Source: Candidatus Caribbeanibacter nitroreducens
Lineage (GTDB): Bacteria; Gemmatimonadota; Gemmatimonadetes; Palauibacterales; Palauibacteraceae
DNA: 49,471 bases
Assembly (NCBI GenBank): GCA_947581645.1
Contig: CANPVF010000183.1
Location: 1-49,471, forward strand
Direction: 5' to 3'
Position numbers and translations under genes: made by a program
The notes under the pieces: model-generated
Databases searched by the model: none
What the model was told of the DNA's origin: nothing
The model's input: the letters and a program-made list of their open reading frames with translations, nothing else
Part shown: piece after piece, positions 15,669 to 49,471 of the stretch
Layout: every line of letters begins with the position of its first letter
How positions within the stretch are numbered: the stretch's first letter is position 1

Positions 15669-15679
15669 CGCTCGAGCCC

Positions 15680-15988
15680 TCAGAACTCCGTCATGACGGC
15701 GAACACCAGGATCGGCGCCAGCGCCAGCGGAGCCGCGGCGATGAGCACCAGTCGCCCGGGCTCGAAGCGGAGGTGCATGAAGTAGAGGGCCACCAGCAGG
15801 GCCTTCCAGACGGCCAGCCCCAGCAGCGACAGCACGATCACCTCGCGGGGGAGGTTCACGAACGCCACCCCCACCTCGATGAGCGTGAGCACGGCCAGCC
15901 CGGCCCACACCGCCATGTAGTTGGGATGGTGCCGCCCCCCGTCGTCCTGCCCGTGGGTGTCGACCCCGGTCTCGTCGCTCTCGGTCAT
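15680..15988 (-). CDS. ctaF: Cytochrome c oxidase subunit IV
   Basis: The protein has 102 aa. A hydrophilic His-rich start (MTESDETGVDTHGQDDGG) is followed by three TM helices with the COX4_pro pattern (YMAVWAGLAVLTLIEVGVAF, REVIVLSLLGLAVWKALLVA, YFMHLRFEPGRL). The small subunit stabilises the CuB/heme a3 core in bacterial aa3 oxidases. It lies between subunit III and heme O synthase, the standard order. The symbol follows Bacillus usage. Confidence 0.9.
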   Translation of the reverse strand: MTESDETGVDTHGQDDGGRHHPNYMAVWAGLAVLTLIEVGVAFVNLPREVIVLSLLGLAVWKALLVALYFMHLRFEPGRLVLIAAAPLALAPILVFAVMTEF

Positions 15989-20429: not shown

Positions 20430-22076
20430 TCACGCCCCGCTCCCGTCGTCTCCGGCGCCGCCCCCCGTCTCCCCCTGCCGGGCGCTCCGCACCATGAAGA
20501 CGCCGAAGCCGGCAACCAGGAGAACCACCGCCGCCGGGGCCACGTAGACCTCGTTCCCGGTGGGCACCTCCAGGACGACGAAGTACCAGCTGCTCACGGC
20601 CGCCCGCTTCCCCGTCTCGGCGTTGTTCCCGTCCCACGCGTAGAAGGCCACCGGGACGGCCACCCCCGACTCCAGGGAAATGCGCTGTCCCTCCCCCTCG
20701 AGGGAGCGGCGGAAGACGACGCTCCACTGTCCCGCCGACCAGGTGGCCTGGCCCTGCAGCCGGCTCTCCGGCAGCGGACCGGCCGTGCCCAGGCCGGTGG
20801 CGGTGGACTCGCGGATCCCGTCCCGGCTGTTCCAGCGCCACAGGTAGACCGGCTTCTGGGCCGATCCCATGAGGAAGTAGGGACGCTCGCGGCCCTCGGG
20901 GATCTCCGTCGGGAACTGCACCGCCAGCCGGTCCGGCAGCGAGTCGGTGGGCCACGGCGTGCCGTCGGCGTACAGGGCGCCGGCCACCCGACGCTGCCAC
21001 TGCATCCAGGCCGAGTCGGGACTCTGCGACGGGTCGTTCCACGACACGCGGAGGGCGATCTCGCTCCCGTCGTGGACGCCCTCGACCCAGACCCCGTCCA
21101 CCATGGGCTCGAACTGCCGCGGCCGCTCGAGCACCTGTCCGGCCATGGGGAACCAGTAGCGATCGACGTCGTCCCACGCGTCGGCCCCGGGCCCCGCCGG
21201 CAGCTCTTCGTCGTCCGCGATCCGCTCCACGCGGACCACGTTCCGCCCCGGGGGCGGCACGCGCTCCGGCGCCAGGCTGCGGACGTAGTAGGCCAGGTCC
21301 CACAGCTGGGCCGAGTCCACCACCCCGGCGTTCAGGGCGTCCGCCTGCGTGGGCATGGGCGTGCCGTCGAGCCCCGTGAGGAAGCGCCGGTGGATCTCCT
21401 CCACGGAGCTTCCCCCGTTGAACAGCCACGGCTGCGTCAGGTCGGCGGCGCGGACGGGCTGATCCCGCCAGTCGGTGAGCGTCGGCGCCGAGGGCCCGTC
21501 GCCGCGCCCCGCGCTCCCGTGGCACCGGTCGCACTCGAGCTTCGTGTAGACCTGTCGGCCGCTCTCCAGCGCCTCCTCGCCGCCCCCCGGCGGACTCTCG
21601 AAGGAGAGGGAGTCCGGCGGGCCGAGCCGCTCGAAGAAGGGGGAGAGCGACTTGAGATACGCCGTCAGGTCGCGCTGCTGCGAACGGTTCAGGTTCGGCC
21701 AGCCGGGCATGGTGGTGCCGGGAAGGCCGTGCTCGATGGCACGCATGATGTCGCCGGTGGTCGGCAGGTTGCCGCTGGCCGTGGTCCGGATCTGGTACCG
21801 GGCCTCGGTGAAGTCCCGGGGGCGGGGCAGCATCCGCGAGGCCGCCGGGCCGTCGCCCTCGCCCTCGGCGCCGTGGCACTCGGCGCACCACCGCTCGTAC
21901 AGCCGCTGGCCGTTCTCCACGTCCTGGGCGTCGGCGGCGGACGGGAGCGCCAGCCCGGCGATCAGCAGGAGCGGCATCAGCGACAGGAACGACGTCCACC
22001 CGGGGCCGTTCCCGTGCGCGCCCGCGTTCCATCTTCCTGCCCCCCGATGCCGTGCCACCCGGCGCGTGCCCCTCAC
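20430..22076 (-). CDS. Di-heme cytochrome c fused to an ethylbenzene-dehydrogenase-type heme-binding domain
   Basis: The protein has 548 aa; the GTG at 22076, behind GGAGGGG, overlaps the previous stop by 4 nt. After a signal sequence (FLSLMPLLLIAGLALPSAADA) there are two cytochrome c domains with heme sites CAECHG (about residue 65) and CDRCHG (about residue 185), each with a downstream Met. Residues about 285-480 match the EB_dh/DMSO-reductase gamma-type domain (EIALRVSWNDP, DRLAVQFPTEIP, YLWRWNSRDG, WSVVFRRSL). A C-terminal TM (VYVAPAAVVLLVAGFGVFMV) follows. EB_dh domains bind heme b, so three hemes are possible. No molybdenum dehydrogenase is nearby, so ethylbenzene oxidation is not implied; membrane-bound electron transfer is likely. 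Confidence 0.87.
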   Translation of the reverse strand: MRGTRRVARHRGAGRWNAGAHGNGPGWTSFLSLMPLLLIAGLALPSAADAQDVENGQRLYERWCAECHGAEGEGDGPAASRMLPRPRDFTEARYQIRTTASGNLPTTGDIMRAIEHGLPGTTMPGWPNLNRSQQRDLTAYLKSLSPFFERLGPPDSLSFESPPGGGEEALESGRQVYTKLECDRCHGSAGRGDGPSAPTLTDWRDQPVRAADLTQPWLFNGGSSVEEIHRRFLTGLDGTPMPTQADALNAGVVDSAQLWDLAYYVRSLAPERVPPPGRNVVRVERIADDEELPAGPGADAWDDVDRYWFPMAGQVLERPRQFEPMVDGVWVEGVHDGSEIALRVSWNDPSQSPDSAWMQWQRRVAGALYADGTPWPTDSLPDRLAVQFPTEIPEGRERPYFLMGSAQKPVYLWRWNSRDGIRESTATGLGTAGPLPESRLQGQATWSAGQWSVVFRRSLEGEGQRISLESGVAVPVAFYAWDGNNAETGKRAAVSSWYFVVLEVPTGNEVYVAPAAVVLLVAGFGVFMVRSARQGETGGGAGDDGSGA

Positions 22077-22918
22077 GACGTCCCCTCCGCGGCGGATCCC
22101 GAGCTCCCGGCCTCGCCCCCGCCGTGGCCCTCCGTGGATCGCGGCGTGAAGCCGGTCTGCTCGTACAGGTAGACGATCACCGACCAGATCTCCCGCTGAC
22201 TCAGCACGCCCTCCCACGCGGGCATGGCCGAGTTCCACGGCGTTCCCTCCGGCGGGAGCCCCGGCCCGCCCTTGGCGATGCGCCAGAAGACGAAGCTCTC
22301 GGACAGCTGCGGGAGGTTCCCGCCCGAGGTCAGGTCCAGCGGCGCCGGATTGAAGGCGTTGGCGAAGTGGCCCTGGCCGTCCAGCCGGTCGCCGTGGCAC
22401 GGGACGCAGTTCTCGGCGTAGATCTCCGCTCCCCGCTCGTAGTGCTCCTGCAGGTCTCCCTCCTCCCGGAGCGGGTTCTGGAGCCGCGAGAGACGGAGCG
22501 TCTCCCCCTCGAACTGGATCTGGTCCGGCGGCGCCGGGTGGATCGATCGGAGGGCCGCCGGCGCGCCGTAGCTGGGGCGGACGTTGGTGTAGGTGAGCCA
22601 GCCCGTGATCGCCATGGCGGCCACCAGCACCGCCACCCGGAGCCAGCCCAGGTCCGGTTCCACCAGCAGGACCCGGATCGGCTCCCTGAACCGCTCCCAC
22701 CGCTCCTCGTTCGCGCTCACGTAGAGCATGAGCGCCAGGAAGACCGAGAGCATGTACTGGAGCACGACGGAGCTCGGCACCGGCGCGCTGGCCACGCCGA
22801 ACAGGGGCGGCACGTGGGGAATGCCGAACCGGATCGCCGCGTAGGCCAGGACCAGGACCAGCGCCGTGGCCCAGAAGGGATGACCGACCCACTCCCGCAC
22901 CCGCTCCGGGCCGCTCAT
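22073..22918 (-). CDS. Membrane-anchored mono-heme cytochrome c
   Basis: The protein has 281 aa. Three hydrophobic segments come first (FWATALVLVLAYAAIRFGI, VLQYMLSVFLALMLYVSA, LRVAVLVAAMAITGWLTYT). A periplasmic class I cytochrome c domain follows at about residues 155-255, with heme site CVPCHGDRLDG and likely axial Met in WNSAMPAWEG. The tail is Gly/Ser-rich. It overlaps the next cytochrome gene by 4 nt, so the two products are probably partners. The multi-TM anchor is unusual for a mono-heme cytochrome and suggests embedding in a membrane complex. Confidence 0.85.
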   Translation of the reverse strand: MSGPERVREWVGHPFWATALVLVLAYAAIRFGIPHVPPLFGVASAPVPSSVVLQYMLSVFLALMLYVSANEERWERFREPIRVLLVEPDLGWLRVAVLVAAMAITGWLTYTNVRPSYGAPAALRSIHPAPPDQIQFEGETLRLSRLQNPLREEGDLQEHYERGAEIYAENCVPCHGDRLDGQGHFANAFNPAPLDLTSGGNLPQLSESFVFWRIAKGGPGLPPEGTPWNSAMPAWEGVLSQREIWSVIVYLYEQTGFTPRSTEGHGGGEAGSSGSAAEGTS

Positions 22919-22949: not shown

Positions 22950-23786
22950 TCACGAGCCCTCGCCCCCCTCGCCGGAGAGCCAGTCCACGAAGGCCTGGAG
23001 CTCGGCGTCGCTCAGCCGCTGGTCGAAGTTGCCGAGCATGGTGCCCGCGAACTGGCTGTAGTCCTTCTCGTAGCCGCTGGCCGTGTCGGCGTTGGGCTGG
23101 AGGATCGAGCGGCGGACGTACTCCGCCGAGAGCCCCTTCTCCTGGATGGCCTCGAAGGGCGGCGCGGTCACGCCGCCGGTGCCGCCGAGCTGGTGGCAGG
23201 CCAGGCACCCGTACTTCTTGGCCAGGGCGCCCGGCTCCGAGCCGGCTCCCCCTGCCCCGCCGGCCGCGGCCTGGCCGCCGCCCGCCGACGGCCCCGATCC
23301 TCCGCCGGCGGCGGGGCCTCCCGTCCCGCTCCCGGCCGAGGCCAGGTCCTCCGAGGAGACCGTCACCTCGCCCCCCTGGCTCTGGAGGAAGGCCACCAGC
23401 GCCCAGATCTGGCCCGGGCTCAGCTGGGCCTCCATGGAGGGCATGATGGGCTGGAATCCCTCCACCACGAAGTCTCGAGGCTGGACCAGCGAGCGGTGCA
23501 GGTATTCCTTGCAGCTCAGCTCCGGCTGCCGCTCGCCGCACCGGGCGCCGATCTCCCCCATCAGTGTCGGGGCCCGGGTGCCGAGGCCGTGGCACGCCTG
23601 GCAGCCGCCGGCGCCCTGGTAGATCTTCTCCCCCATGCTCACCAGCTGCTGGGTGGAGGTGTTGGGCCCCACCTCCACCCGCTCCGGGACCTGCGACTCC
23701 ACCTGCGGGATGACGTTCGAGATCCCGGTGTACACCCCCAGCGTGAGCAGCACCGTCCCGACGATCTTCGCGTTCGTCTTCCACAT
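22950..23786 (-). CDS. Di-heme cytochrome c with N-terminal anchor
   Basis: The protein has 278 aa and starts 1 nt after the CydA-like gene. N-terminal signal/anchor MWKTNAKIVGTVLLTLGVYT. Two cytochrome c domains follow: CQACHGLG (about residue 62), with PIMPSME as probable Met ligand, and CLACHQLGG (about residue 195), with TMLGNFDQRL. A Gly/Ala/Ser-rich flexible linker joins them. Its immediate coupling to the CydA-like gene makes it the best candidate for that protein's electron donor. Confidence 0.88.
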   Translation of the reverse strand: MWKTNAKIVGTVLLTLGVYTGISNVIPQVESQVPERVEVGPNTSTQQLVSMGEKIYQGAGGCQACHGLGTRAPTLMGEIGARCGERQPELSCKEYLHRSLVQPRDFVVEGFQPIMPSMEAQLSPGQIWALVAFLQSQGGEVTVSSEDLASAGSGTGGPAAGGGSGPSAGGGQAAAGGAGGAGSEPGALAKKYGCLACHQLGGTGGVTAPPFEAIQEKGLSAEYVRRSILQPNADTASGYEKDYSQFAGTMLGNFDQRLSDAELQAFVDWLSGEGGEGS

Positions 23787-23787
23787 C

Positions 23788-25659
23788 TCAGGCCACCTGC
23801 TCTTCGGCTGACTCCAGGCGGGGCCCCTCCTCGCCGACGTCGGCGCCCGGACCGCCGCCCGCGCCCTCCTCCCCGACGGCCTTCGCTCCGCCCCCGCCGG
23901 AGCCCTCCTCGGCCAGCGTGCCGAGCCAGAAGATCAGGCCCACGAGGGCGAAGAAGATCAGCACGCAGACGCTGATCATGATCGCGGCGTGGCCCAGGGC
24001 CGGGGTGGCCGCCTGGCTGCTGGTGTCCCGCACCGTCTGGTAGACGTGCCAGTGCTGGCGGATGCCGCTCCGCGCGAAGCCCATGAGGCCCATGAGCCAG
24101 GTGAAGGTCACCGCCAGGATGAAGAGGGCGTACTGCGAGCGCTCGGGCATCTTGCCCCACCGTATGCTCCCGCGGCTCTCGGCGCCGCGCATCATGGCCA
24201 CGTCGAGCCCCACCACGAAGACCATGGCGGCCAGGACCGAGAGCACCTGGTAGACGCTGAACCCGATGCGCACCTCGGCGGTGACGAAGTAGCCGTACAC
24301 GCCATAGAAGAGCACCACCCCCGCGGCCACCGCCACGGCCGCAGCCTGCACCCAGGTGCCGGCCTTCGCCCAGTCCACCTTCGGCACCTTGTTGGCCCGG
24401 CGGTAGAGCATGAACGAGATGAAGGTGGCCAGGATCATGAAGTTCACGGCCGTGTTCTTGGCGCTCATCACCCCCAGGACGTTCAGGAAGGGGTGGTGGC
24501 TCCCGCCCATGGCCGCCAGCTCCTGGCGGCTGGCGATCATGGTGTGCGGCGTGGCCCACACCACGAACCCGAGGACCAGCACCGCCAGCAGGTACTTCGT
24601 GTACTTCTGGAAGCGCTCGGCTCCCGGGATCCGGTCCATGCCGGTCCACAGGTAGTAGTTGCCGGCCAGGAAGAGGACCCCGATGAGGAAGGCCTGGATG
24701 ATCCACAGCCAGCTCATGAAGCCGCCCATCATCGTGATCCCCATGGCCTGGTCGTAGGCGTAGATCTCCCGCCCCAGCCAGTAGCCGGCGAAGGGGAGGA
24801 CCAGGAGGGCGGCGATGGCGATGAAGTTCCCCACGTAGCCCATCCAGTCGTAGTGGGCCCGCTCCTCGTCGGAGTCGGCCGCCAGGAAGCGGTAGGCGGC
24901 ATAGGCCCCGACGATGGCCCCGCCGAACACCACGTTGGCGATGAGCCGGTGGATGTTGATGGGCATCCACGTGAAGTTCATCACGGCGTTCCACAGCTCG
25001 ATGCTGGCCGGATCCGTCTGCGCCGTCACCCCCGACGGCGGGCTCATCATGTAGCTGAGCCACGAGTCGGCGATGAAGAGGACCAGGGTGCCCCAGACGT
25101 TGAGCAGGACGCCGAGCCCCAGGTGGAGCTTCTTCTTCGCCCCCTCCTTCATGTGGTTCCAGCCGTAGTAGTAGACGTACAGGGTGAAGGACTCGAAGAA
25201 GAAGAGCCCGGCGTACGCCCACATGGTCGGCGCGAAGACCTCGGTGAGGTGCCGCCAGAAGGTGGGGTAGAGGGTGGAGAGGAAGAAGACCAGCACCGCC
25301 CCCCAGATGGCGGTGGCGCTGTAGGCCACCAGCAGGAGGCGGGTGAACTCCTTGGAGAGCCGGTCGTAGCGCTTCTCCCCGGTCCACATCCCGATGCCCT
25401 CCACGACCACCGCGAACATCGGGACGCCCAGCACGAAGGCGGCGAACATCAGGTGCAGCTGCGCGGCGATCCACACCGCGCCGCGCGGACCCACCACCGG
25501 GAAGTCGCCGTAGACCTGCTCCGTCTGCTGGGCCAGCCCCGGCTCGACCAGGGCCAGGACGGCCAGCAGGGCCGCCGCGGCGGCGCCGGACCAGCGCACG
25601 GCCCGTGACGACCCGGAGCCGGACCGCCCGACCCCGTCCGCCGCGCCGGTCTCACTCAT
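23788..25659 (-). CDS. CydA-like (cytochrome bd superfamily) oxidase subunit I, no CydB
   Basis: The protein has 623 aa. The ATG at 25659 overlaps the radical SAM stop by 8 nt. The fold matches CydA: QLHLMFAAFVLGVP (His69, equivalent to the b595 His), MWAYAGLFFFESFTLYVYYYGW (conserved Glu) and INIHRLIANVVFGG (His237, equivalent to the b558 His). The canonical E-x-GRQPW motif is replaced by RSGIRQHW (residues 530-537), so the Glu that ligates heme b595 in E. coli aligns with Ser531. No CydB gene is in the operon. C-type cytochromes follow instead. Phylogenetic work describes CydA families outside the quinol oxidases, including ones from Nitrospira-like bacteria, and this may belong to one. It could oxidise cytochrome c or quinol. 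Confidence 0.85.
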   Translation of the reverse strand: MSETGAADGVGRSGSGSSRAVRWSGAAAAALLAVLALVEPGLAQQTEQVYGDFPVVGPRGAVWIAAQLHLMFAAFVLGVPMFAVVVEGIGMWTGEKRYDRLSKEFTRLLLVAYSATAIWGAVLVFFLSTLYPTFWRHLTEVFAPTMWAYAGLFFFESFTLYVYYYGWNHMKEGAKKKLHLGLGVLLNVWGTLVLFIADSWLSYMMSPPSGVTAQTDPASIELWNAVMNFTWMPINIHRLIANVVFGGAIVGAYAAYRFLAADSDEERAHYDWMGYVGNFIAIAALLVLPFAGYWLGREIYAYDQAMGITMMGGFMSWLWIIQAFLIGVLFLAGNYYLWTGMDRIPGAERFQKYTKYLLAVLVLGFVVWATPHTMIASRQELAAMGGSHHPFLNVLGVMSAKNTAVNFMILATFISFMLYRRANKVPKVDWAKAGTWVQAAAVAVAAGVVLFYGVYGYFVTAEVRIGFSVYQVLSVLAAMVFVVGLDVAMMRGAESRGSIRWGKMPERSQYALFILAVTFTWLMGLMGFARSGIRQHWHVYQTVRDTSSQAATPALGHAAIMISVCVLIFFALVGLIFWLGTLAEEGSGGGGAKAVGEEGAGGGPGADVGEEGPRLESAEEQVA

Positions 25660-27106
25660 CGCCGTCCCCCTCCCCGCCGCGGGCGAAGAAGGGCATGCGC
25701 TCCGAGAAGTCGATGGGCATCTCCTTCCGCACGCGGGTCATGAGCTCGGCCGTGACCCGGCTCTCCCCCTTCCGGCGGGCGTAGTCCTCCAGGCGGTTGG
25801 CCACCACACCGCGGACGAAGGAGGGCACCCGCTCGAGCCGCTCCTCGGCGTCCTCCGTCCACGGCATCTCCCGGTCCGCCGACTCGCCGTAGGTGATCTC
25901 CCGCGGCGGCTGGATGGCCTCCTCCCGCCCGTCCGGCTCGTACGCACAGGACTCGTCGGGGCCCATCGGATCGCCGGTCTCGGCGTGGGCCCGGGCGCGA
26001 CATCCGCCGCACAGCTCCCGGTAGGCGCAGCGCCCGCACTTCCCGCCGAGGCTCTCCTCCCGCAGCCGCCGGAAGAGCTCCGATCCCCGCCACACCTCGC
26101 CGAAGCTCGCCTCCCTGAGGTCGCCGGCCACCTCCGGCATGTACGGGCACGGGGTCACCTTGCCCTCCGGCGTGATGCGGCAGTACTGGACGCCGCACGG
26201 ACAGCGGGTCCGGTAGTTGAGCAGCGGGGAGTCGGGGTCGCGCTCGTGGACGTGGCGCATGAGCTGCGGCTGGCACTTGGAGCGGATCATCAGCCGCCCC
26301 CGGTACTCCCGCTGCAGCTCGGCCAGCTCCGCCAGGACCTCCTCGTTCTGCTCCGGCGACAGGCCGGTCAGCCGTCCGTCGCTGGCCATGCCCTCGCCCC
26401 GGCCCGTGCCCACCAGGAAGTACAGGTTGAAGCACACGGCCCCCTTCTCCGCCGCCCACGCCACCAGCTCCGGGACCTCCTCCCGGTTGGCCCGGGTGAG
26501 GGTGGTCTGGACCACGAAGTCCAGCCGTCCCTCCCGCAGGCGCTCCACGGCCGCGAGCGTCTGCTCCAGGGCGCCGGCCCCGCGCCGGAACCGGTCGTGA
26601 TAGTCCGGGTCCAGGGAGTCGACGCTGATCGCCACCCCGCGCACGCCGGCGTCCTTGAGCGAGGCGATCCGGTCCCGGGTCAGGAGCGTCCCGTTGGTGC
26701 CCACCACCACGGTGGCGCCCTGCCCGGACGCGTAGGCGGCGATCTCCTCCAGGTCGTCCCGGACCAGGGGCTCGCCGCCGGAGAGCACGAACAGGGGCGC
26801 CGGGTTCACGTCCAGCACCTGGTCGGTGATCCGCCGGCACTCCTCGGTGGAGAGGTCGTCGCCGTCGGAGCGCCAGGAACCGGCCGAGATGTAGCAGTGG
26901 GGGCACTCCAGGTTGCAGCGCGCCGTGAGGTTCCAGGCCACCACGTGCGGCAGGTCGCGGTCCGAGTCCTCCGCGGCCTCCGCGGCCGTCGCCCCGGCCG
27001 TCTCGGCGCCGGCGCCCGGCTCCCACGCGTCGCGGTAGGCGGACGGAAAGCCGTCCCCCTCCCCGAGGTCCGCGCCGGCGTCTCTGCTGGCCCCCGTCTC
27101 GCTCAC
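25652..27106 (-). CDS. Radical SAM/SPASM enzyme (NirJ/AhbD-like) with C-terminal PCP_red-like domain
   Basis: The protein has 484 aa; the GTG at 27106 overlaps the stress-protein stop (GTGA). An acidic N-terminus of about 50 residues is followed by the radical SAM core with CNLECPHC (Cys64, 68, 71), LSGGEPLVRDDL and a TNGTLLT strand. A SPASM region holds auxiliary-cluster cysteines (RCPCGVQYC, TPCPYMPE, KCGRCAYRELCGGC). This layout resembles heme-biosynthesis enzymes NirJ, AhbC and AhbD, and also peptide-modifying SPASM enzymes. Residues about 415-465 (PWTEDAEERLERVPSFVRGV and following) match the PCP_red domain seen at the C-terminus of BchB/ChlB. Heme or tetrapyrrole chemistry is an attractive inference; a peptide substrate is the alternative, but no small precursor gene was seen. 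Confidence 0.87.
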   Translation of the reverse strand: MSETGASRDAGADLGEGDGFPSAYRDAWEPGAGAETAGATAAEAAEDSDRDLPHVVAWNLTARCNLECPHCYISAGSWRSDGDDLSTEECRRITDQVLDVNPAPLFVLSGGEPLVRDDLEEIAAYASGQGATVVVGTNGTLLTRDRIASLKDAGVRGVAISVDSLDPDYHDRFRRGAGALEQTLAAVERLREGRLDFVVQTTLTRANREEVPELVAWAAEKGAVCFNLYFLVGTGRGEGMASDGRLTGLSPEQNEEVLAELAELQREYRGRLMIRSKCQPQLMRHVHERDPDSPLLNYRTRCPCGVQYCRITPEGKVTPCPYMPEVAGDLREASFGEVWRGSELFRRLREESLGGKCGRCAYRELCGGCRARAHAETGDPMGPDESCAYEPDGREEAIQPPREITYGESADREMPWTEDAEERLERVPSFVRGVVANRLEDYARRKGESRVTAELMTRVRKEMPIDFSERMPFFARGGEGDGDE

Positions 27107-29268
27107 CCCGACCCGCCTTCCCTCTCGCCGTCTCCGTCCTCGCCGCCGTCGCCCTCCGCCTCCATGTAGGCTTCGATGGCCTCCTCCGCCTGATCCGGGG
27201 TGGCCATGTCGAAGTCCACCGGGCAGTCGTCCTCGTCCCGGGCCTCCTCGGCCACGTCCCGGATCGGACACTTCTCGACGCCGCTCTCCTTGGCCTCCTC
27301 GATGAACTTCTTCATCTCCGGGCTCAGGCCCTCGGCCCCGGCGGCCTCCGCCCGGGCCTGCTTGGCCTTCATGTTCTCGAACATCACGAGCATGGTGTCG
27401 ACGTCGAACGTGTCGGCGTCGATCATGGCCTGCTTGTTCTCGTCCATGAGGTCGGTGGTCACCCGCCAGTCGCCCCGCTCCCGGGCGAACTTCTCCACCG
27501 TGTTCCGGGCCAGCGGGCGGGGGATCAGCGGCACCTGCTTCAGCCGCTCGAAGGCCTCGTGTGTCCACACCACCGGGTCGGACTCGGTGCGCTCCCGCTC
27601 CTGCTCGTGGCCGGTGTACGGGCACTCCTCCACCACCGCGGGCGGCTCCGGGTCCTCCTCGTCCTCGTGTCCGTGGACCACCGTCCGCTCCATGGCCTCC
27701 TCGGCCTTCACCTCGGCACGGGCGATCTCCTCGGCGTCGCCGATCCCCATGACCATCTGCATGTGGGTGGGGAGCAGCTTCTCGATGGCCTCGTCCAGCC
27801 GCTCGTTGGTCACCACCGGCAGCTCCTCGCGGGTGAGCTGCGGCGCCTCGCCGTCGCCGTTCGCCGAGCCGGGCCCCGGGGCCTTCTGGGCGCCCGTCCC
27901 GTTGCCCCCGTTCTCGCCCGGCTTCCAGTCGTCGACGAAGGCGGCGGCGAACTCGGACCCGGGGCCGTAGTGCTCCAGGACGTACTCCTCCACGGCGTCC
28001 CGTGCGATGCCGATGGCGAAGGGGGGAACGCGCTGGATGCGGACCTCCGCGTCGGGCGCCCACTCCAGTCCCTTCTTCCCGTCCTCCTCGATCCAGGGCA
28101 CGTCCTCCGGGTTCACGTCCTCCGTGCCGGTGAGCATGACGCTGCACGGGGCCATGCGGAGCAGGTTGTCGGCGTTGGAGCCCAGGTCGGGGCCGTCGAT
28201 GCGGTGGGAGCCGTGACGGGCCAGGAAGAGCATGGAGGGCTCCACCTCGTCCGCCCACTGGAGGATGGACTGGAAGGGCTTCCCGATCAGGACCTGGGTC
28301 TCCAGCGGGACGTCCGGGTACTCCTCCGCCATCTTTTTGGCCCGCTTGATGTTGGCCTGTGATAGACGGAGCAGCCCCTTGTCGATGACGTTGTTATGGA
28401 GCTCCTCCTGCTCCTCGAACTTGAAGACCTTCGAGGCCTGGGCGGAGAGGACGTCCTTGATGTTGTTGAAGACGGCGTGGTGGTACTGGACGTCGAAGGA
28501 ACTGCACACGTAGAGCTTGGCTCCGAACTCCTCCGCCATCTCCAGGGCCATCTTCATCGCCCGGTAGCTGTAGGCCGAGCCGTCGACGCAGACCATCCAC
28601 TCGCCGTTCTCCAGCGGCGAGTCCTCCCGTACCAGGAGCATGTCCTTGTCGACGCCCCTGGCCACGCGGGAGACGACGCCGCCCAGCTGCGAGCGGGGCT
28701 GCCGGCCGATGCCGTGGGCGCCGATGACGAGCAGGTCGTAGTCGCGACCCGAGCTGCCGGCGAGCTTCTCCTCCTGCTCCTCGTCCTCGGCGACGATGTT
28801 GCCCTCGTCGTCGACCTCGACGTCGCCCCGGACGTCGTCGCCGCCGTCGTACTTGTCGGCGATGTTCCGGTCGAAGCCGATGAGGCTGGGGAGCTGGCCG
28901 GCGCCCCGGTTCGTCTCCTTGACGATCTCCTCGTAGTTGATCCCCTCGAGGAGCTGGCGGGTCATGGAGACGTCCCGCTCGCGGCAGCGCTCCGCCACCT
29001 CGTTCAGGAAGCTGTCGGAGATGAGCTGGAGGCCCTTCTCGATCAGCTTGTCGTGGACCTTCCGCTGGCGGCGGATCTCCTCGGGATCCTGGAAGCGGGC
29101 AGGGAGCCCGACCTCGAGCTGGCGGAAGCGGACGTCGTGGAGCCGGGCCGCGTAGACGTGGCTCGCGGTCAGGTGACCGTCGAAGCGGTCGGCGATCTCG
29201 ATGGCCCGGTCGACGGCCCAGTCGGAGTGCTGAGAATTGTCGACGGGGACCAGGAGCTCGCGGTACAT
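27103..29268 (-). CDS. Double universal stress protein with two PCP_red-like domains
   Basis: The protein has 721 aa from the ATG at 29268; a GTG six bases upstream is possible. USP domain 1 covers residues 1-215 (MYRELLVPVDNSQHSDWAVD, VIGAHGIGRQPRSQLGGVVS) with an acidic insert at about 140-172. USP domain 2 covers 223-382 (VCVDGSAYSYRAMKMAL, ARHGSHRIDGPDLGSNADNL). Then comes a PCP_red-like segment split by a linker (401-436 WAPDAEVRIQRVPPFAIGIA and 483-500), and a clearer copy at about 568-617 (WTHEAFERLKQVPLIPRPLA). The C-terminal 100 residues are very acidic with Cys in EKCPIRDV and DDCPVDF. It is the first gene of the oxidase operon. It may sense nucleotide or redox state, or act as a scaffold. 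Confidence 0.85.
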   Translation of the reverse strand: MYRELLVPVDNSQHSDWAVDRAIEIADRFDGHLTASHVYAARLHDVRFRQLEVGLPARFQDPEEIRRQRKVHDKLIEKGLQLISDSFLNEVAERCRERDVSMTRQLLEGINYEEIVKETNRGAGQLPSLIGFDRNIADKYDGGDDVRGDVEVDDEGNIVAEDEEQEEKLAGSSGRDYDLLVIGAHGIGRQPRSQLGGVVSRVARGVDKDMLLVREDSPLENGEWMVCVDGSAYSYRAMKMALEMAEEFGAKLYVCSSFDVQYHHAVFNNIKDVLSAQASKVFKFEEQEELHNNVIDKGLLRLSQANIKRAKKMAEEYPDVPLETQVLIGKPFQSILQWADEVEPSMLFLARHGSHRIDGPDLGSNADNLLRMAPCSVMLTGTEDVNPEDVPWIEEDGKKGLEWAPDAEVRIQRVPPFAIGIARDAVEEYVLEHYGPGSEFAAAFVDDWKPGENGGNGTGAQKAPGPGSANGDGEAPQLTREELPVVTNERLDEAIEKLLPTHMQMVMGIGDAEEIARAEVKAEEAMERTVVHGHEDEEDPEPPAVVEECPYTGHEQERERTESDPVVWTHEAFERLKQVPLIPRPLARNTVEKFARERGDWRVTTDLMDENKQAMIDADTFDVDTMLVMFENMKAKQARAEAAGAEGLSPEMKKFIEEAKESGVEKCPIRDVAEEARDEDDCPVDFDMATPDQAEEAIEAYMEAEGDGGEDGDGEREGGSG

Positions 29269-29670
29269 CGGCACCTCGAAGCCTCGGTGAACGCAGCGCC
29301 ATCGCTGTCGGCCCTGAGGAAACGGCGATGCCGCCGGTCCGTCCGCCTCGAGTCACTGCACAGGCCACCGGGGTGGGCTCTCTCGACTCTCAACGGCCGC
29401 ACTGCGACCGCCGCGCCGTCCCGGCACGTTCGAGCCTCGAGGCGCCCTCGGCGCCTTCCGACCCCGCCTGTCACCGGCTGGATCTCGTGAACTCGCGGAC
29501 GCCTCGTGGCAGTCCGCCGTTCCTCGGCTTCTCGGTGCCTCCGGAGCTCCCGTCAGGGAGAATCCGTGAGGCAGGAAAAATGGATCCGTGACCCGGATCC
29601 ATTCCTGTTTCGAATATTGTCTGTAATTATCCGACGTCCAGATCGTATATAGCTGCCCCTGCTGGTCACG
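29269..29670. other. Inter-operon region, no gene
   Basis: This stretch of 402 nt separates two minus-strand operons. Positions 29270-29570 are GC-rich with no convincing frame. Positions 29572-29670 are AT-rich and hold the hairpin and the promoter described separately. The leader between the promoter and the first gene would be about 370 nt long. Confidence 0.6.
29576..29603 (-). terminator. Intrinsic terminator or attenuator hairpin
   Basis: AATGGATCCG (579-588) pairs perfectly with CGGATCCATT (594-603) around a 5-nt loop. Read on the minus strand the stem is followed by further T residues (five T at 576-580, two of them in the stem). CAGGA/TCCTG adds outer pairing. It can terminate the upstream ABC-transporter operon. 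Because a strong promoter lies just before it, it could also attenuate the downstream oxidase operon. Confidence 0.75.
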
Positions 29671-29674
29671 TCAA
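29646..29674 (-). promoter_or_regulatory. Strong sigma70-type promoter for the oxidase operon
   Basis: On the minus strand TTGACG (29669-29674) and TATATA (29646-29651) are separated by exactly 17 nt. The -35 box overlaps the TGA stop of the ABC permease gene. Transcription would begin near 29639, about 36 nt before the hairpin at 29576-29603. It is the best-matching housekeeping-type promoter noticed in the window. Confidence 0.7.
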
Positions 29675-30432
29675 AAGTGGTTGTCGGTGCCGGTGAGCCG
29701 ACGGCCGACCCACGGTCCACCGATCCACGCGCACGCAATCAAGAGGAGCGTCGCCGCGGCGGGCCCCGTCCAGAGCCCCGCCGATCCCCATCCCGCAACC
29801 GACGCCGCAGAGCCCCAGAGGTCGGTGGCGCCAGCGAGGTTCCGGAAGGACGAGAGGGCCGGCCGGAAGGGGCTCACGGCCGCGGCGGTCTCCTGCCAGC
29901 TCCCCGGCGACGGCGGGCGGAACGCGCCGGCCAGGTGCAGCGCCACGAGGCCCGCGCCGGCACACACCAGCGCCCCCTCCGCCAGCGAGCGCACCGCGGC
30001 GGCGACCAGGGTTCCCACCAGGTTGGCGGCCACCAGCGCCAGGAGGGCCCCGGCCGTCACCGACGCCGCCGGCAGCGCCACCCGGGCGCCGCCCTCGATC
30101 CAGATCACCGCGGCCAGCGCCGGAGCCAGCTGCAGAAGGTCCTGGAGGGAGTGGGCGGCGGTCCGTTCCACGAGCCACCGGCGGACGCCGCATCCCGTGA
30201 GCAGCACACGCTCGACCCAGCCACGCTCCGCGTCCCGGATCACCGGTGCGGCGGCCCCGAAGAGCCCGAAGAAGACGACGAAGAGCGCGTAGACCGTGGC
30301 CCGGTGCGCGTCAGCGGCGCCGCTCAGCGCCACCGGGACCAGCAGCAGCACCGGAACGGAGACGCTCCACGCCAGGCGGCCCGGGCGGGAGAGGACGATC
30401 CGCCACTCCAGCCGCCAGACGCCCCCCGTCAC
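29671..30432 (-). CDS. ABC-2 type transporter permease
   Basis: The protein has 253 aa; the GTG at 30432 overlaps the ATPase stop by 4 nt. It has six TM helices ([85 protein letters not shown] and [19 protein letters not shown]). [15 protein letters not shown] is the coupling-helix region usual for ABC-2 exporters. Size and topology also resemble the heme-exporter component CcmB, but specific CcmB motifs are not evident. Substrate unknown. Its stop overlaps the promoter of the next operon. Confidence 0.8.
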
Positions 30433-31382
30433 GGGCTCTCCCGGCGGAGGGGCTCGCCCGCCAGCGCCAGGAACGCGTCGTCCAGGTCCGGGCTCCGGAC
30501 CCGGACGCCGGCGATCTCCGCGCCCGCCTCCAGGAGGCGGGCCGAGAGGTCCGGCAGGGAGGCGCCGCCGTCCCGGGCGCTGAACCGGAGGCGTCCGCCG
30601 TCCCGGGCCGCGAGTCGGACCCCCTCCGGCCACTCCCGCCCCTCCGCCACGCCGTCTTCCGCCGGACCCACGAGCTCCACCTCGATGGTGGCCGAGCCCT
30701 CCACGGCGCCGATCAGCTCCTCCGGGCTCCCCAGCGCCGCGAGCTCCCCGGCGCGGAGGAACGCGACCCGATCGCAGACGTCCTCCATGAACGCCGCGCC
30801 GTGGCCCGTGACCACAGTGGCACCGCCGGCGCGGGCCCGCTCCCGCAGGCTCCCGGCCAGCGTGGAGCGGGCGGCGGCGTCCAGGGCGTCCAGCGGCTCG
30901 TCCAGGAGCAGGAGGTCGCCGGCCGCGGCGAAGGCCAGGGCCAGGTCCGTCTTCCGGCGCATGCCCCGCGAGTAGGTCGCGACGGGATCCCCCGAGCGGT
31001 CGGCGAGGCCGAACCGGCCCAGCCACGTCTCGGCGCGGTCCCGGGCCTCCGGGCCCGGAACGCCGCGGAGCTCGAGCAGGCGCGTCACGTTCTCGCGGCC
31101 CGGGAGGCTGTCGGCGAAGGGGGAGCGGTCGAGGACCGTGGCGGTGCGGCGGAGGGCGCCGCCGGCGCCTCCCCCGAAGCGCTCCACGCGGCCGCCGTCG
31201 GGCTCCAGGGCCCCGGCCAGCACGCGCAGGAGCGTGCTCTTGCCCGATCCGTTGGGCCCCATGACTCCCAGCACCTCGCCGCGGCGGACCACGAGGTCCA
31301 CGTCCCGTAGCGCGGACCGCCCCTCCTCCCAGGCGTGCCGGATCCCCTCGGCGCGGACCGCAGGCTCTTCCCGGGGCGTCAC
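30429..31382 (-). CDS. ABC-2 type transporter ATPase
   Basis: The protein has 317 aa; the GTG at 31382 overlaps the ferredoxin stop. Walker A is GPNGSGKST, the Q-loop lies near ATVLDRSPF, the signature is a variant [16 protein letters not shown], Walker B is LLLLDEP and the H-loop is VVTGHG. About 100 C-terminal residues follow, like the DUF4162 extension of ABC-2 drug/lipid exporters. It forms a two-component exporter with the permease that follows. Coupling to a ferredoxin and a PCP_red protein suggests export of a cofactor or cluster-related compound, but this is speculative. Confidence 0.88.
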
Positions 31383-31630
31383 GGCGCCAGCAGGTTCCCC
31401 TCGTCGTCCCGGGCGGTGATGGCGTCCACCGGACACGAGCGGCACGCCTCGAGCAGCGTCTCACGGTCCACGCTCTCCGGCTCCGTGAACTCGGCCAGGT
31501 CGTCCTCGTTCAGCTCGAAGCACTCCGGCGACGCGTCCACGCAGTCGCCGAATCCCACGCAGAGGTCCAGGTCGACCTTCACCGTGAGCCCGTGGACCTC
31601 GCGCTCGTAGCGGAGGTCGGCGTCGCTCAC
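31379..31630 (-). CDS. Small 3Fe-4S/4Fe-4S single-cluster ferredoxin
   Basis: The protein has 83 aa; the GTG at 31630 overlaps the previous stop by 4 nt. The cluster-binding pattern is [20 protein letters not shown] and CRSCPVDAI, the layout of mono-cluster ferredoxins that serve P450s and other oxidoreductases. It is highly acidic. Its place between a PCP_red protein and an ABC ATPase, upstream of a radical SAM gene, makes it a candidate reductant for that enzyme. Confidence 0.88.
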
Positions 31631-32148
31631 ATTCCCTCCAGTCCCAGGTCGCTCCGGGCACGGTCCATGACCTCGGGCGTGATCTCCTCGATGCCCCGCT
31701 CCCGGGCCCAGTCCGTGTAGATCCGGTGGACCATGCCGCGCACGAAGCTCGGCACCCGCTCCAGGCGGTCCGCGGCGTCCTCGGTCCACGTCACCGAGAC
31801 ATCGCCGTCACCGTCGCCGTCGCCGCCGGAGGTGCCCTCCGCGCCGGCCCCGTCGTCCCCGCCGCCGGCGTCCGTCGCGGCCGCCGGGAGGTCGCCGTCG
31901 TCGAAGGCGTCCTCCCGGCCCGAAGCCACCTGCTTCCGCGTGGACTCCATGGGCTGCTGCTCCACCGTCCGCCCGCCGATCTCCACGCCCAGCGAGGAGA
32001 CCAGCTGCGTCTCCATGGGATTGGTCAGCATGCCCACCGCGCGGCCGCAGTCCGGGCACTCGAAGACGGCGGCCAGCGTCCCGTCGCCGGGCTGGTCCCG
32101 CTGGGCGAACTCCATCTGCTCGTCGCACCCGACGCACAGGAATTTCAC
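31627..32148 (-). CDS. Zinc-ribbon protein with C-terminal PCP_red-like domain
   Basis: The protein has 173 aa; the GTG at 32148 overlaps the Mrp ATPase stop. The N-terminus has two CxxC pairs (FLCVGCDEQM and FECPDCGRAVGML), a zinc ribbon or small metal site. An acidic Gly/Asp/Ala linker follows at about residues 85-117. Residues about 119-173 (VTWTEDAADRLERVPSFVRG and following) are a clear PCP_red domain. The core ERLERVPSFVRG is nearly identical to that of the radical SAM protein. Homologues are annotated as PCP reductase family proteins; no function is established that I know of. Confidence 0.85.
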   Translation of the reverse strand: MKFLCVGCDEQMEFAQRDQPGDGTLAAVFECPDCGRAVGMLTNPMETQLVSSLGVEIGGRTVEQQPMESTRKQVASGREDAFDDGDLPAAATDAGGGDDGAGAEGTSGGDGDGDGDVSVTWTEDAADRLERVPSFVRGMVHRIYTDWARERGIEEITPEVMDRARSDLGLEGM

Positions 32149-33053
32149 GCGGTCCTCCCGGCCTGTTCTCCCGGTGACTCCAGTCGATCGGCGATCCCCG
32201 ACAGCTCCCGACCCGCGGCGGTCTCCCGGAGGGCGCGGGCCGTCTCGCCCCGGTCGGCCAGCTCCGCCGCCCGGGGATCGAAGGGCACGGTCCCCAGCAG
32301 CGGCAGGTCGAAGCGCTCGGCCAGCTCCCGGCCCGCCTCGCCCGGGAAGAGGGGCCCCCGGCTCCCGCAGTCGCCGCACGCGTAGGACGACATGTTCTCC
32401 ACCACGCCGGCCACGGGAACGTCCCCGGAGCGAACGAGGCGGAGGGAGCGCTCGACGGCGGAGCGGGACGCCCCGGTGGGGAGGGTGACGGCCACGGCGG
32501 CGTGGAGGCCGGGGACCAGCTCCAGCAGCTGCTCCAGCCGGCCGCTGCCCGGCGGCAGGTCCACCACGAGCCACGCGAGCTCACCCCAGGACACGTCGCC
32601 CAGGAATTCCCGCAGGACGCCGTGCTCCTGGGCCCCGCGCCACACGAAGCTCTCCGAGTCCGGCTCCCGCCACGCCAGCGGGGCCTCCTCCTCCAGCAGG
32701 AGCCCGGTGGAGATGAGCCGGACGTCACCGGCGGCGGCCGGCTCGACGCCGCCCTCGGTGACGGCCAGCGGCTCCCGCGGGGCCCCGAGCATCCGATCCG
32801 CGGTGGGAGCGTCCAGGTCGGCGTCCAGGAGGCCCACCCGGCCGGGGTCGGCCCGGTCGGCCAGCGCCGCGGCCAGCGACGCTGCCACGTAGCTCTTCCC
32901 CACCCCGCCCTTCCCGCTCATCACGGCGAGGATCCTGTCCACGTCCTCCATCCGCCGCGTCACCCGGGCGCGCTGCTCCTCCACCTGCCCGGCCAGGTCC
33001 GAGCGGTCCTCGCCCTCCACCTCGGCGTAGGTGCGGATGTCGTAGTCGCTCAC
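32145..33053 (-). CDS. Mrp/NBP35-family Fe-S carrier ATPase
   Basis: The protein has 302 aa with a GTG start. The deviant Walker A MSGKGGVGKSYVA, the switch segment GLLDADLDAPTADRMLG, the VVDLPPGSG motif and VENMSSYACGDCG, with the CxxC that holds a bridging 4Fe-4S cluster, identify a Mrp/ApbC-type ATPase. It lacks the N-terminal MIP18/DUF59 domain of many Mrp proteins and has a charged N-terminus of about 38 residues instead. It probably delivers clusters to the ferredoxin or radical SAM enzyme encoded downstream. Confidence 0.9.
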   Translation of the reverse strand: MSDYDIRTYAEVEGEDRSDLAGQVEEQRARVTRRMEDVDRILAVMSGKGGVGKSYVAASLAAALADRADPGRVGLLDADLDAPTADRMLGAPREPLAVTEGGVEPAAAGDVRLISTGLLLEEEAPLAWREPDSESFVWRGAQEHGVLREFLGDVSWGELAWLVVDLPPGSGRLEQLLELVPGLHAAVAVTLPTGASRSAVERSLRLVRSGDVPVAGVVENMSSYACGDCGSRGPLFPGEAGRELAERFDLPLLGTVPFDPRAAELADRGETARALRETAAGRELSGIADRLESPGEQAGRTA

Positions 33054-33111: not shown

Positions 33112-33600
33112 TCACAGGTCCCAACCGGCCCGGGCCAGGAAGGCCAGGTTCACGACCACGACCACCAGGGCCGTGAGGTAGAAGGACGGGGGGAGACGGG
33201 AACCGGCCTCGGGGAGGAACGCCCCCTGGATCAGGGCCGGGAGGCGGAGGGCGTGGAGCCCCCAGATGATCCGGGCGAACCAGCGGTTCTGCCACGCCCA
33301 CAGCCCGAGGAAGACCACGGCCAGGATGCCGGCCCCCACCAGGAGCCAGACCCAGACGGGGCCGCGATCCGCCGGGAGCGCTCCCCCCTGGTGCATGGCC
33401 CACACGGCGGCCTCGTACAGCAGCCCCACGTGCAGGTAGGCGAACGCCGCCTGCCGGAACTTCCGCGACCGGCGTTCGTCGGCGGCGTCGTCCACGTCCT
33501 CGGCCGCTCGCTGCTCCTCGGTGTCCAGCCGCGCCTCCCGTTGGAGTGCCCGGTCCGGCGGGAGAGGCGTCCCGCGCCTCCCCGGCCGGGCTAGGATCAC
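33112..33600 (-). CDS. Four-TM membrane protein of unknown function
   Basis: The protein has 162 aa from the GTG at 33600 (GGCGAGGGCG upstream); the start is uncertain. A charged N-terminus (RLDTEEQRAAEDVDDAADER) precedes four helices (AFAYLHVGLLYEAAVWAM, VWVWLLVGAGILAVVFLGLW, WFARIIWGLHALRLPALI, FYLTALVVVVVNLAFLARA). It is 58 nt upstream of the Mrp gene and probably heads that operon. Family not recognised. Confidence 0.65.
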   Translation of the reverse strand: MILARPGRRGTPLPPDRALQREARLDTEEQRAAEDVDDAADERRSRKFRQAAFAYLHVGLLYEAAVWAMHQGGALPADRGPVWVWLLVGAGILAVVFLGLWAWQNRWFARIIWGLHALRLPALIQGAFLPEAGSRLPPSFYLTALVVVVVNLAFLARAGWDL

Positions 33601-33747
33601 GCCGCGCCCTCGCCTCCGCAAGACGGGCGGCGCTCGGGCTGCCGTCGCCCGCTCCCGGCCGCTCCCTTATGTTGCCCCCGACGGTCGGGCCGGAGTCGAC
33701 ACCGGACGGGGACGGGCTCCCCGTCCTCCGAGAATCGGGAGGTCGCC

Positions 33748-33954
33748 GTGTCCCTCATCGCGTTCCACCGGGTGCTCATCACCACCGGGATCCTCTTCGC
33801 CGGCGGCTTCTCCGCCTGGCAGATCCAGCGGTTCCTCGAGGGAGGCGCCCCGCTCCAGCTCGTGCTGGGGGCGGTCTTCGGCCTCGCCGCGCTGGGGCTC
33901 GTCTGGTATCTGCTCCACCTGGACCGCTTCCTCGGGCGGGCCTCCGGCGGCTGA
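33748..33954 (+). CDS. Very small two-TM membrane protein
   Basis: The protein has 68 aa from a GTG at 33748 with GGGAGG seven bases upstream. Two hydrophobic helices (FHRVLITTGILFAGGFSAW and LVLGAVFGLAALGLVWYLL) are followed by a short tail (HLDRFLGRASGG). It is divergent from the Mrp/PCP_red operon and 31 nt before the HmuY-like gene. It resembles small accessory subunits of respiratory complexes but no family is assigned. Confidence 0.65.
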   Translation: MSLIAFHRVLITTGILFAGGFSAWQIQRFLEGGAPLQLVLGAVFGLAALGLVWYLLHLDRFLGRASGG

Positions 33955-33985
33955 CCGGCAGCGACGGGGGCGAACGCCGGAGCCC

Positions 33986-34627
33986 GTGAGCCGTCTGCTG
34001 CCCGACGACCTCGGCCGCGTCCCCTGGTGGCTGGGGGCCGCCGGAGGGGTCTTCGTCCTGGCGGTGGCCTACCTGGTGGCCTCGTCCCTGGTCCGGCCGT
34101 CGCCGCCGACCCGCCTGCCCTCCTCCCCCTCCCCCGCCGGGGTCGGCGACAGCCTGGTCGAGGACCGCGTCGTCACGCTGGACACCCGGGACCGGGAGGA
34201 GTGGCGTCGGTTCGACTTCTCCCGCGGCGCCCCGGTCGCCGGCGCCCGGAGGAGCGAGTGGGACCTGGCGGCCCGCCGGTACCGCCTGATCGTCAACGGC
34301 GGAGACCAGTTCGCGGGACGGGCCGGAGTCGTCTCCCTGGGTGCGGTCCCCTTCGACTCCGTCCGCCGCGTCCCGGCGGAGGGCTACCGGGGAACGCGCC
34401 GCGACCAGGGAGGCGACCCGGAGCACCCGGTCCTGGACGGGTGGTACCGCTACGACTTCTTCTCCCACCTGCTCCTCTCCCGGGGACGGGTCTTCGCGGT
34501 CCGCACGGCCGACGGCCGCTACGCCAAGGTGGCGGTGGTGAGCTACTACTGCCCCGGGCCGGAGCCCGGCTGTCTGACGATCCGCTACTCGTACCAGGGC
34601 GGCGGCAGCCGGCGGGTGGCCCGCTGA
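33986..34627 (+). CDS. HmuY-like protein (candidate heme-binding)
   Basis: The protein has 213 aa with a GTG start at 33986. An N-terminal TM (WWLGAAGGVFVLAVAYLVASS) anchors a periplasmic domain. HmuY-family features: RRFDFSRGAP, EWDLAARRYRLIVNGG, WYRYDFFSHLLLSRG, VRTADGRYAKVAVVSYYC and IRYSYQGGG. In Porphyromonas HmuY is a surface heme-binding lipoprotein; relatives in environmental bacteria are uncharacterised. Location beside a respiratory and tetrapyrrole-related region makes periplasmic heme capture or delivery plausible, but heme ligands cannot be identified with confidence. Confidence 0.75.
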   Translation: MSRLLPDDLGRVPWWLGAAGGVFVLAVAYLVASSLVRPSPPTRLPSSPSPAGVGDSLVEDRVVTLDTRDREEWRRFDFSRGAPVAGARRSEWDLAARRYRLIVNGGDQFAGRAGVVSLGAVPFDSVRRVPAEGYRGTRRDQGGDPEHPVLDGWYRYDFFSHLLLSRGRVFAVRTADGRYAKVAVVSYYCPGPEPGCLTIRYSYQGGGSRRVAR

Positions 34628-48806: not shown

Positions 48807-49471
48807 ATGAGCGAACCCCGCCTCCCCGCACTCACCCTCGACGGCTGGTACGTACTGCACCAGTTCTTCCGGCTCGACTGGGCTCCCCTGAAGCGGCTCG
48901 ACTCCGACCAGAGACGCGATCACGAGGAGGAGATGGCCGCCTTCCTGGAGGGCCGTGCCGACCTCGGCGACGAGGGCTGGTCCGGCGGCTACCGCATCGT
49001 CGGCGGCGACTCGGACCTGCTCCTCATGCACTTCCGGCCCGACCTCGAAGGGCTCGCCGCCGCCGAGAGGCGCGTGGCGCTCACGGGCCTCGGCGATTTC
49101 CTCACTCCCTCCTACGACTACCTCTCGGTGGTGGAGCTGGGCCAGTACTCGCTCACCGCGGGCCTGGTGAAGCAGCTCGAGGAGGAGGGCGTGGAGCGAC
49201 ACTCCGACGAGTGGAACCGCCGCATGGAGGAGGCCCTGGAGGACGCCGCGGAGAGCAGCTACGTGGAGCACCGACTCCAGCCGCGGCAGCCGGACGACAT
49301 GCCGTACGTCTCCTTCTATCCCATGGACAAGCGGCGGGAGCCGGAACAGAACTGGTACCGTCTCTCGCTGGAGGAGCGGGAGGAGCTGATGGCGGAGCAC
49401 GGCCGCATCGGACGGCGCTACGCCGGACGGGTCTCACAGGTGATCTCCGGCTCGGTGGGATTCGACGACTG
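48807..49471 (+). CDS. hemQ: HemQ-type coproheme decarboxylase (chlorite dismutase family), truncated by window edge
   Basis: 221 codons from the ATG at 48807; the frame is still open at the right edge. Family pattern: LDGWYVLHQFFRLDW at the start, LLLMHFRPDLEGL, VELGQYSLTAGL, YVSFYPMDKRREPEQNWYRL, and LMAEHGRIGRRYAGRVSQVI with the proximal heme His, ending SGSVGFDD. The KRR...NWY loop and HG-GR motif distinguish HemQ from true chlorite dismutases. It converts coproheme III to protoheme in the coproporphyrin-dependent heme pathway. That pathway would supply the many hemoproteins encoded here. Confidence 0.93.
   Translation, partial: MSEPRLPALTLDGWYVLHQFFRLDWAPLKRLDSDQRRDHEEEMAAFLEGRADLGDEGWSGGYRIVGGDSDLLLMHFRPDLEGLAAAERRVALTGLGDFLTPSYDYLSVVELGQYSLTAGLVKQLEEEGVERHSDEWNRRMEEALEDAAESSYVEHRLQPRQPDDMPYVSFYPMDKRREPEQNWYRLSLEEREELMAEHGRIGRRYAGRVSQVISGSVGFDD

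Follow-up and report, generated by a model that had tools for sequence, protein, structure and literature searches.

PCP_red proteins partner a CydA-like/cytochrome c complex in nonphototrophic bacteria and form a candidate heme maturation module

The PCP_red domain is known as the C-terminal domain of BchB/ChlB (PDB structures 2xdq and 2kru) in dark-operative protochlorophyllide oxidoreductase (DPOR), which works with a P-loop Fe-S ATPase partner, BchL, and a ferredoxin. It is also already known outside BchB, in small proteins of the Asr4154 type (PDB structure 2l09); the Nostoc protein is a single short domain of 62 residues. Here we describe four PCP_red domains in three proteins encoded by a 49,471-nucleotide stretch of DNA from Candidatus Caribbeanibacter nitroreducens (assembly GCA_947581645.1, contig CANPVF010000183.1, positions 1 to 49,471), which we call the window. 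The carriers are a radical SAM protein, a tandem universal stress protein (Usp), and a zinc ribbon protein, encoded with an Mrp-type ATPase beside a respiratory complex that contains a CydA-like subunit and c-type cytochromes. The locus shares with DPOR the domain itself, an Fe-S ATPase partner (Mrp in place of BchL), and a ferredoxin, but it differs in lacking a BchB core, in its carrier proteins, in its nonphototrophic hosts, and in its link to respiration. Unlike these carriers, the Nostoc protein has no radical SAM or Usp fusion.

Other parts of the locus also have described relatives. The radical SAM enzymes NirJ, AhbC, and AhbD, which belong to heme d1 synthesis and to the siroheme-dependent heme pathway, act on Fe-tetrapyrroles (PMC7242693), and a CX2CX5CX20-21C motif has been reported for NirJ and AhbC (PMC12505453). 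The window protein has the same radical SAM core, SPASM/twitch region, and CX2CX5CX20C spacing. Two Usp domains, as in the window protein, are found in the tandem Usp proteins Rv2623 and TTHA0350. A 2021 CydA phylogeny by Murali et al. reportedly contains OR-C and OR-N branches that are putatively cytochrome c-linked. These branches are named in PMC10839748 and PMC13189123, and we set the window complex beside them by description only, based on its CydA-like N-terminal half, its equivalents of H19, E107, and H186, and its c-type cytochrome subunits. In the openly licensed literature that we searched, we came across no description of PCP_red accessory genes, or of such a module, beside CydA.

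We searched the window proteins against Pfam-A, in which PCP_red (PF08369) has a curated cutoff of 32.5 bits. The domain was found in the radical SAM protein (residues 416-459, 54.4 bits, E = 1.3e-14), in the Usp protein (two stretches, 58.8 bits, E = 5.4e-16), and in the zinc ribbon protein (residues 121-165, 52.2 bits, E = 6.4e-14). A search of the whole genome returned exactly four matches, every one of them in this locus:

25730-25861, minus strand: PCP_red domain 1, at the C terminus of the radical SAM protein; 57.3 bits, E = 5.8e-15, with three helices at high confidence in the structural model
27433-27567, minus strand: PCP_red domain 2, the second copy in the Usp protein; 48.4 bits, E = 3.5e-12
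27973-28062, minus strand: first two helices of PCP_red domain 3; 25.6 bits, covering positions 1-30 of 45
27769-27816, minus strand: third helix of PCP_red domain 3, past a linker of about 50 residues; contiguous in relatives L030 and L031
31654-31788, minus strand: PCP_red domain 4, in the zinc ribbon protein; 54.9 bits, E = 3.3e-14

Three of the four domains exceed the cutoff, and domain 3 falls below it because the linker interrupts the window copy. Where relatives lack the linker, this domain matches over its full length and above the cutoff (38.9 bits in G031, 36.3 bits in G029). Thus, a first-pass annotation made from the sequence was right that three nonphotosynthetic proteins carry four such domains and that a linker splits one copy in the Usp protein. 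As a control, we searched 14 well-known genomes, among which only Synechococcus gave a PCP_red match. Among PDB chains, a profile of the zinc ribbon protein recovered DPOR subunit B (2xdq, 2.8e-10) as well as 2kru and 2l09, which are isolated PCP_red domains.

The same annotation had stated that no bchL, bchN, or bchB catalytic core is present. This holds for BchB, as none of the four matches lies in one and the three proteins have no Pfam-A match to Oxidored_nitro, the nitrogenase-like core that precedes PCP_red; bchL and bchN were given no separate search. The Oxidored_nitro core was detected in the true BchB of a phototrophic relative. Mean PCP_red identity between the groups formed by the three proteins is 32-42%, similar to the 32-36% identity with BchB, which rules out that the domains are recent copies of each other.

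The three carriers lie on the minus strand with the Mrp ATPase and the subunits of the respiratory complex:

32145-33053, minus strand: Mrp/NUBPL-type P-loop ATPase (PF10609, 3.4e-58)
31627-32148, minus strand: zinc ribbon protein with two CxxC pairs and a C-terminal PCP_red domain, 173 amino acids (PCP_red, 6.4e-14)
27103-29268, minus strand: tandem Usp protein of 721 amino acids, with two PCP_red domains and Cys-Pro motifs after the Usp domains (Usp, 8e-33; PCP_red, 5.4e-16 over two stretches)
25652-27106, minus strand: radical SAM/SPASM protein (NirJ/AhbC/AhbD group) of 484 amino acids, ending in a PCP_red domain (PF04055, 6.7e-29; SPASM, 5.3e-9; PCP_red, 1.3e-14)
23788-25659, minus strand: CydA-like membrane subunit, 623 amino acids (Cyt_bd_oxida_I, PF01654, 4.1e-23, in the N-terminal half)
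22950-23786, minus strand: diheme cytochrome c subunit, kept next to CydA (Cytochrom_C, 2.9e-13, two stretches)
22073-22918, minus strand: membrane-anchored monoheme cytochrome c subunit, conserved (Cytochrome_CBB3, 1.6e-10)
20430-22100, minus strand: diheme cytochrome c fused to a heme b-binding EB_dh domain (Cytochrom_C, 2.9e-21; EB_dh, 1.6e-15; DMSO_red_II_gam, 1.5e-27), analyzed as the C-terminal 556 amino acids of a longer open reading frame (ORF)

The full order is Mrp ATPase, zinc ribbon protein, ferredoxin, ABC-2 exporter pair, Usp protein, radical SAM protein, and CydA-like subunit, followed by the diheme cytochrome c, the membrane cytochrome c, the diheme c/EB_dh protein, a secreted protein, COX2, COX1, COX3, and a UbiA-DUF420 fusion. 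Read from the sequence, ORF ends overlap by 4 bases between the Mrp and zinc ribbon genes, the zinc ribbon and ferredoxin genes, and the Usp and radical SAM genes, and by 8 bases between the radical SAM and CydA-like genes, as in a translationally coupled operon.

To see how the module is distributed, we compared PCP_red with a profile of the CydA-like subunit. PCP_red was found in 21 of 41 relatives, usually in exactly four copies, and in none of the other 20. The CydA-like profile gave a strong, full-length or nearly full-length match in 19 of the 41, all within the 21; in the two PCP_red genomes without such a match (G019 and G026), the module lies on a short contig or at the end of a contig. 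The canonical cydA of the remaining relatives scored only about 1e-15 to 1e-19 against this profile. Across 249 Gemmatimonadota genomes of at least 85% completeness, 60 have both CydA-like and three or more PCP_red domains, two have the module only (G097 and G284, where the locus stops at a contig end), two have CydA-like with fewer than three PCP_red domains (two in G115, none in G296), and 185 have neither. The 27 Gemmatimonadota genomes with one or two PCP_red domains and no CydA-like gene are mostly consistent with phototrophs, and the one that was checked by profile (L128) has a BchB with the Oxidored_nitro core. Among 297 Acidobacteriota, 30 genomes have both, four have PCP_red without CydA-like, none has CydA-like alone, and 263 have neither. 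In three of the four extras, the PCP_red ORFs are of BchB size and the genomes of 3.7 Mb, consistent with phototrophic Chloracidobacterium.

The association extends beyond these phyla. When named genomes were scanned with an alignment of the CydA-like protein, 80 loci were obtained, which by their labels fall into about eleven phylum-level groups; 60 of the loci have a PCP_red gene within the 10-kb flank. Whole-genome searches of 45 genomes, mostly from other phyla or with less than the full set in the flank, found PCP_red in 43. The three PCP_red proteins and Mrp occur beside CydA-like and c-type cytochromes in Gemmatimonadota, Acidobacteriota, Bacteroidota, Calditrichota, Fibrobacterota, SAR324, Rhodocyclales, and Planctomycetota; the Rokubacteria (G046) and Chloroflexi (G054) modules lie about 12 kb from CydA-like, just past the flank and apparently on the same contig. 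Fewer than 300 bp separate the radical SAM and CydA-like genes in 39 loci, the Usp and radical SAM genes in 38, and the Mrp and zinc ribbon genes in 42, the loci being partly redundant. The conserved core is the three PCP_red proteins, Mrp, the CydA-like subunit, and three cytochrome c proteins, and the counts show a near-strict genomic partnership between the PCP_red module and the CydA-like/cytochrome c complex. The first-pass annotation had proposed a PF08369 search and a co-occurrence survey as checks; the former returned significant matches, and the near-perfect co-occurrence in the latter, with conserved linkage across phyla, rules out chance scatter of PCP_red. Two contigs in the survey are likely misbinned or mislabeled: L073, labeled Gammaproteobacteria, has a Gemmatimonadota-like module, and L102, labeled Acidimicrobiia, was placed within Acidobacteriota.

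The radical SAM protein and the NirJ/AhbD-like SPASM enzyme, which the first-pass annotation listed as separate genes, are one gene. All 67 orthologs have CxxxCxxC together with CX2CX5CX20C, which fits the auxiliary cluster motif of the NirJ/AhbC group (CX2CX5CX20-21C), and 65 of the 67 have PCP_red. Among NCBIfam models, the protein scores highest against NirJ2, with 289 bits, and AhbD, with 287 bits; as each of these models has a cutoff of 500 bits, the protein is a relative rather than a member of these equivalogs. It differs from NirJ, AhbC, and AhbD also in four further invariant cysteines (C278, C302, C320, and C369), in its C-terminal PCP_red domain, and in its operon, which has no nir or ahb partner genes. 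Its AlphaFold model has a pLDDT of 86 overall and about 95 in the PCP_red helices.

The model of the Usp protein matches the tandem Usp folds 3cis and 3ab8. Unlike Rv2623 and TTHA0350, the window protein has extended helical inserts with conserved His pairs, at least two PCP_red domains, and Cys-Pro motifs. H37, H44, H72, H263, H291, and H355 are kept in at least 99% of 67 sequences, and 65 of 67 orthologs have two or more PCP_red domains. The orthologs contain 139 Cys-Pro pairs where 22 would be expected, with three regular motifs in Gemmatimonadota-type proteins; we take these motifs to resemble heme regulatory motifs. In the zinc ribbon protein, C5, C8, C31, and C34 are invariant in 44 orthologs, and a KCPFTG motif is present in several phyla other than Gemmatimonadota. 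Mrp/NUBPL Fe-S carriers are recognized by a deviant Walker A motif and a CxxC motif; the Mrp orthologs have Walker A in 56 of 56 and CxxC in 41 of 56, the window protein among them.

The CydA-like protein belongs to the cytochrome bd subunit I superfamily, based on its PF01654 match and the proximal heme His of helix 1. In the N-terminal half, the only part that aligns with canonical CydA and the part that the ligand comparison covers, H69, E156, and H237 align with H19, E107, and H186 of the E. coli type, and the E99 position is Tyr. H69, H179, H237, H389, and H538 are invariant in 89 orthologs. The Tyr at E99 and the further invariant His residues suggest altered heme ligation in this subunit. 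The criteria for a quinol-oxidizing cytochrome bd (qOR) are a CydB partner, a Q-loop, E99, and GRQPW with E445; we recognized no cydB among the annotated genes neighboring the CydA-like gene. In Myxococcota and SAR324, three loci (L082, L086, and L142) contain a second CydA-like gene, and the two genes have their own cytochrome c sets; their products are possibly subunits that pair, or parts of two complexes.

With moderate confidence, we read the PCP_red proteins as a module dedicated to the adjacent CydA-like/cytochrome c complex, one that would mature or modify its heme; they probably prepare or install the heme of the CydA-like protein. The tandem Usp/PCP_red protein would capture cytoplasmic heme or another Fe-tetrapyrrole through PCP_red and the conserved His and Cys-Pro sites. 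The NirJ/AhbC/AhbD-type enzyme would then modify a side chain or the ring of the tetrapyrrole, its own PCP_red domain docking or capping the substrate, while the Mrp ATPase, the zinc ribbon/PCP_red adaptor, and ferredoxin would provide or reduce clusters. The finished cofactor would be passed to the CydA-like subunit. We infer tetrapyrrole binding or heme modification by PCP_red from family resemblance, namely from BchB, NirJ/AhbD-type enzymes, a PCP_red-siroheme-domain fusion, and the conserved His and Cys-Pro sites; the substrate of the radical SAM enzyme, the sequence of these steps, and the kind of heme are likewise proposals. The first-pass annotation had suggested an undescribed tetrapyrrole-binding or heme-modifying module; this suggestion fits the strong profile match and the linkage to CydA-like that is conserved across phyla, and a tetrapyrrole or heme role would follow from family resemblance. 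More tentatively, radical SAM chemistry may make a previously unseen modified heme (e.g., chlorin-type or propionate-altered) that PCP_red tetrapyrrole chaperones insert into a widespread family of CydA-like/cytochrome c oxidoreductases. If an unusual heme is made, it would connect respiration with NirJ-type radical chemistry and with tetrapyrrole handling of the DPOR type, the expression and study of CydA-like terminal oxidases would change, and there is a sizeable chance that the system is categorically new. The three PCP_red proteins and Mrp are a concrete accessory set for a bd-family respiratory complex that occurs in many phyla of uncultured bacteria from soil, the sea, and groundwater. 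A chlorophyll-pathway domain gains a likely role in nonphototrophs, and whether these complexes carry an unusual heme becomes testable.

Several points weigh against the maturation reading. Most genomes in the survey are metagenome assembled, and the Fisher p values for co-occurrence (1e-52 in Gemmatimonadota, 4e-37 in Acidobacteriota) ignore phylogeny and serve as a guide only. The Cys-Pro motifs are regular in Gemmatimonadota-type proteins only. Even in BchB, the function of PCP_red could be to dock proteins, and SPASM radical SAM enzymes often have peptide substrates. In the main rival, the SPASM enzyme would install a peptide modification in the CydA-like or a cytochrome c subunit, and the maturation proteins would be kept together by PCP_red, a docking domain common to them. 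The best Foldseek matches of the radical SAM model, the peptide-modifying PqqE and SkfB, fit this proposal, the match list having no entry for tetrapyrrole radical SAM structures of the NirJ/Ahb group. Four PCP_red domains in three adjacent proteins, and multicopy proteins elsewhere, suit docking, and zinc ribbon and Usp are typical adaptor folds. However, sequence profiles put the enzyme nearest to NirJ2 and AhbD, with their cluster motif, and PCP_red occurs also in BchB and in fusion with a siroheme-protein domain; we judge peptide modification rather unlikely.

A regulatory or protective complex that senses heme or ATP, in which tandem Usp and PCP_red proteins would read tetrapyrrole status and control oxidase assembly or activity with the heme unmodified, would suit the closeness of the fold to ATP-binding Usp proteins and the presumed heme regulatory motifs, but it leaves unexplained the Mrp ATPase and a near-universal radical SAM protein with intact clusters, and we consider it improbable. 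Very improbable is that the radical SAM protein is simply the organism's general heme b synthase, as its 287-bit AhbD score might indicate. That score is far below the cutoff, the host genome encodes ferrochelatase and ChdC separately, and the module is missing from relatives that have ferrochelatase and lack CydA-like (for example, G006, G010, G025, and G027). The module tracks CydA-like rather than ferrochelatase, and is therefore not the cell's general route to heme b.

The ChdC (coproheme decarboxylase) gene lies at 48924-49469 on the plus strand of the window and is cut by the contig end; the rest is probably on contig C59. Eight relatives of genera g2 and g4 (G001, G003, G007, G009, G012, G015, G018, and G021) have no ferrochelatase or ChdC match, yet encode cytochrome b; they may be auxotrophic for heme or rely on a different heme route. 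No bc1-type cytochrome b was found in the host genome, which encodes an NrfD/ActC-like protein that would fit an alternative complex III. Several module carriers do encode cytochrome b. Given this protein and these carriers, we set aside the CydA-like complex as an obligate replacement for complex III.

The remaining neighbors are the following:

31379-31630, minus strand: single-cluster ferredoxin, found in Gemmatimonadota loci (Fer4_13, 1e-10)
29671-31445, minus strand: ABC-2 type exporter pair, ATPase at 30429-31445 (ABC_tran, 2.8e-22) and permease at 29671-30438 (ABC2_membrane, 4.3e-8)
33521-34624, plus strand: HmuY-like protein, divergent from the operon (PF14064, 4.4e-10)

These profile matches, with that of the Mrp ATPase, bear out the neighbors named in the first-pass annotation. 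Only some of the Gemmatimonadota loci have the exporter; the HmuY-like gene has homologs in 19 of the collected loci and lies beside or near the module in many Gemmatimonadota. Exporter, ferredoxin, and HmuY are accessory, being common only in Gemmatimonadota; their presence in only part of the loci rules them out as core parts. Downstream of the COX genes, at 14286-15908 on the minus strand, the UbiA prenyltransferase of the DUF420 fusion is heme O synthase-like.

Other PCP_red architectures were seen during the survey. In Scalindua (G051, L135:6693-7763), PCP_red is fused N-terminally to NIR_SIR and two 4Fe-4S motifs, like a sulfite reductase subunit C, which is another tetrapyrrole-linked PCP_red architecture. 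Usp or radical SAM proteins with multiple PCP_red domains are encoded at L140:609-2741, L142:9990-12425, and L134:4261-5967, with four to five copies in the Usp proteins of one Myxococcota and one SAR324 genome and two copies in the Scalindua radical SAM protein. A 317-amino-acid protein at L142:8978-9928, with a similar protein in L082, represents an unassigned family that ends in a PCP_red domain.

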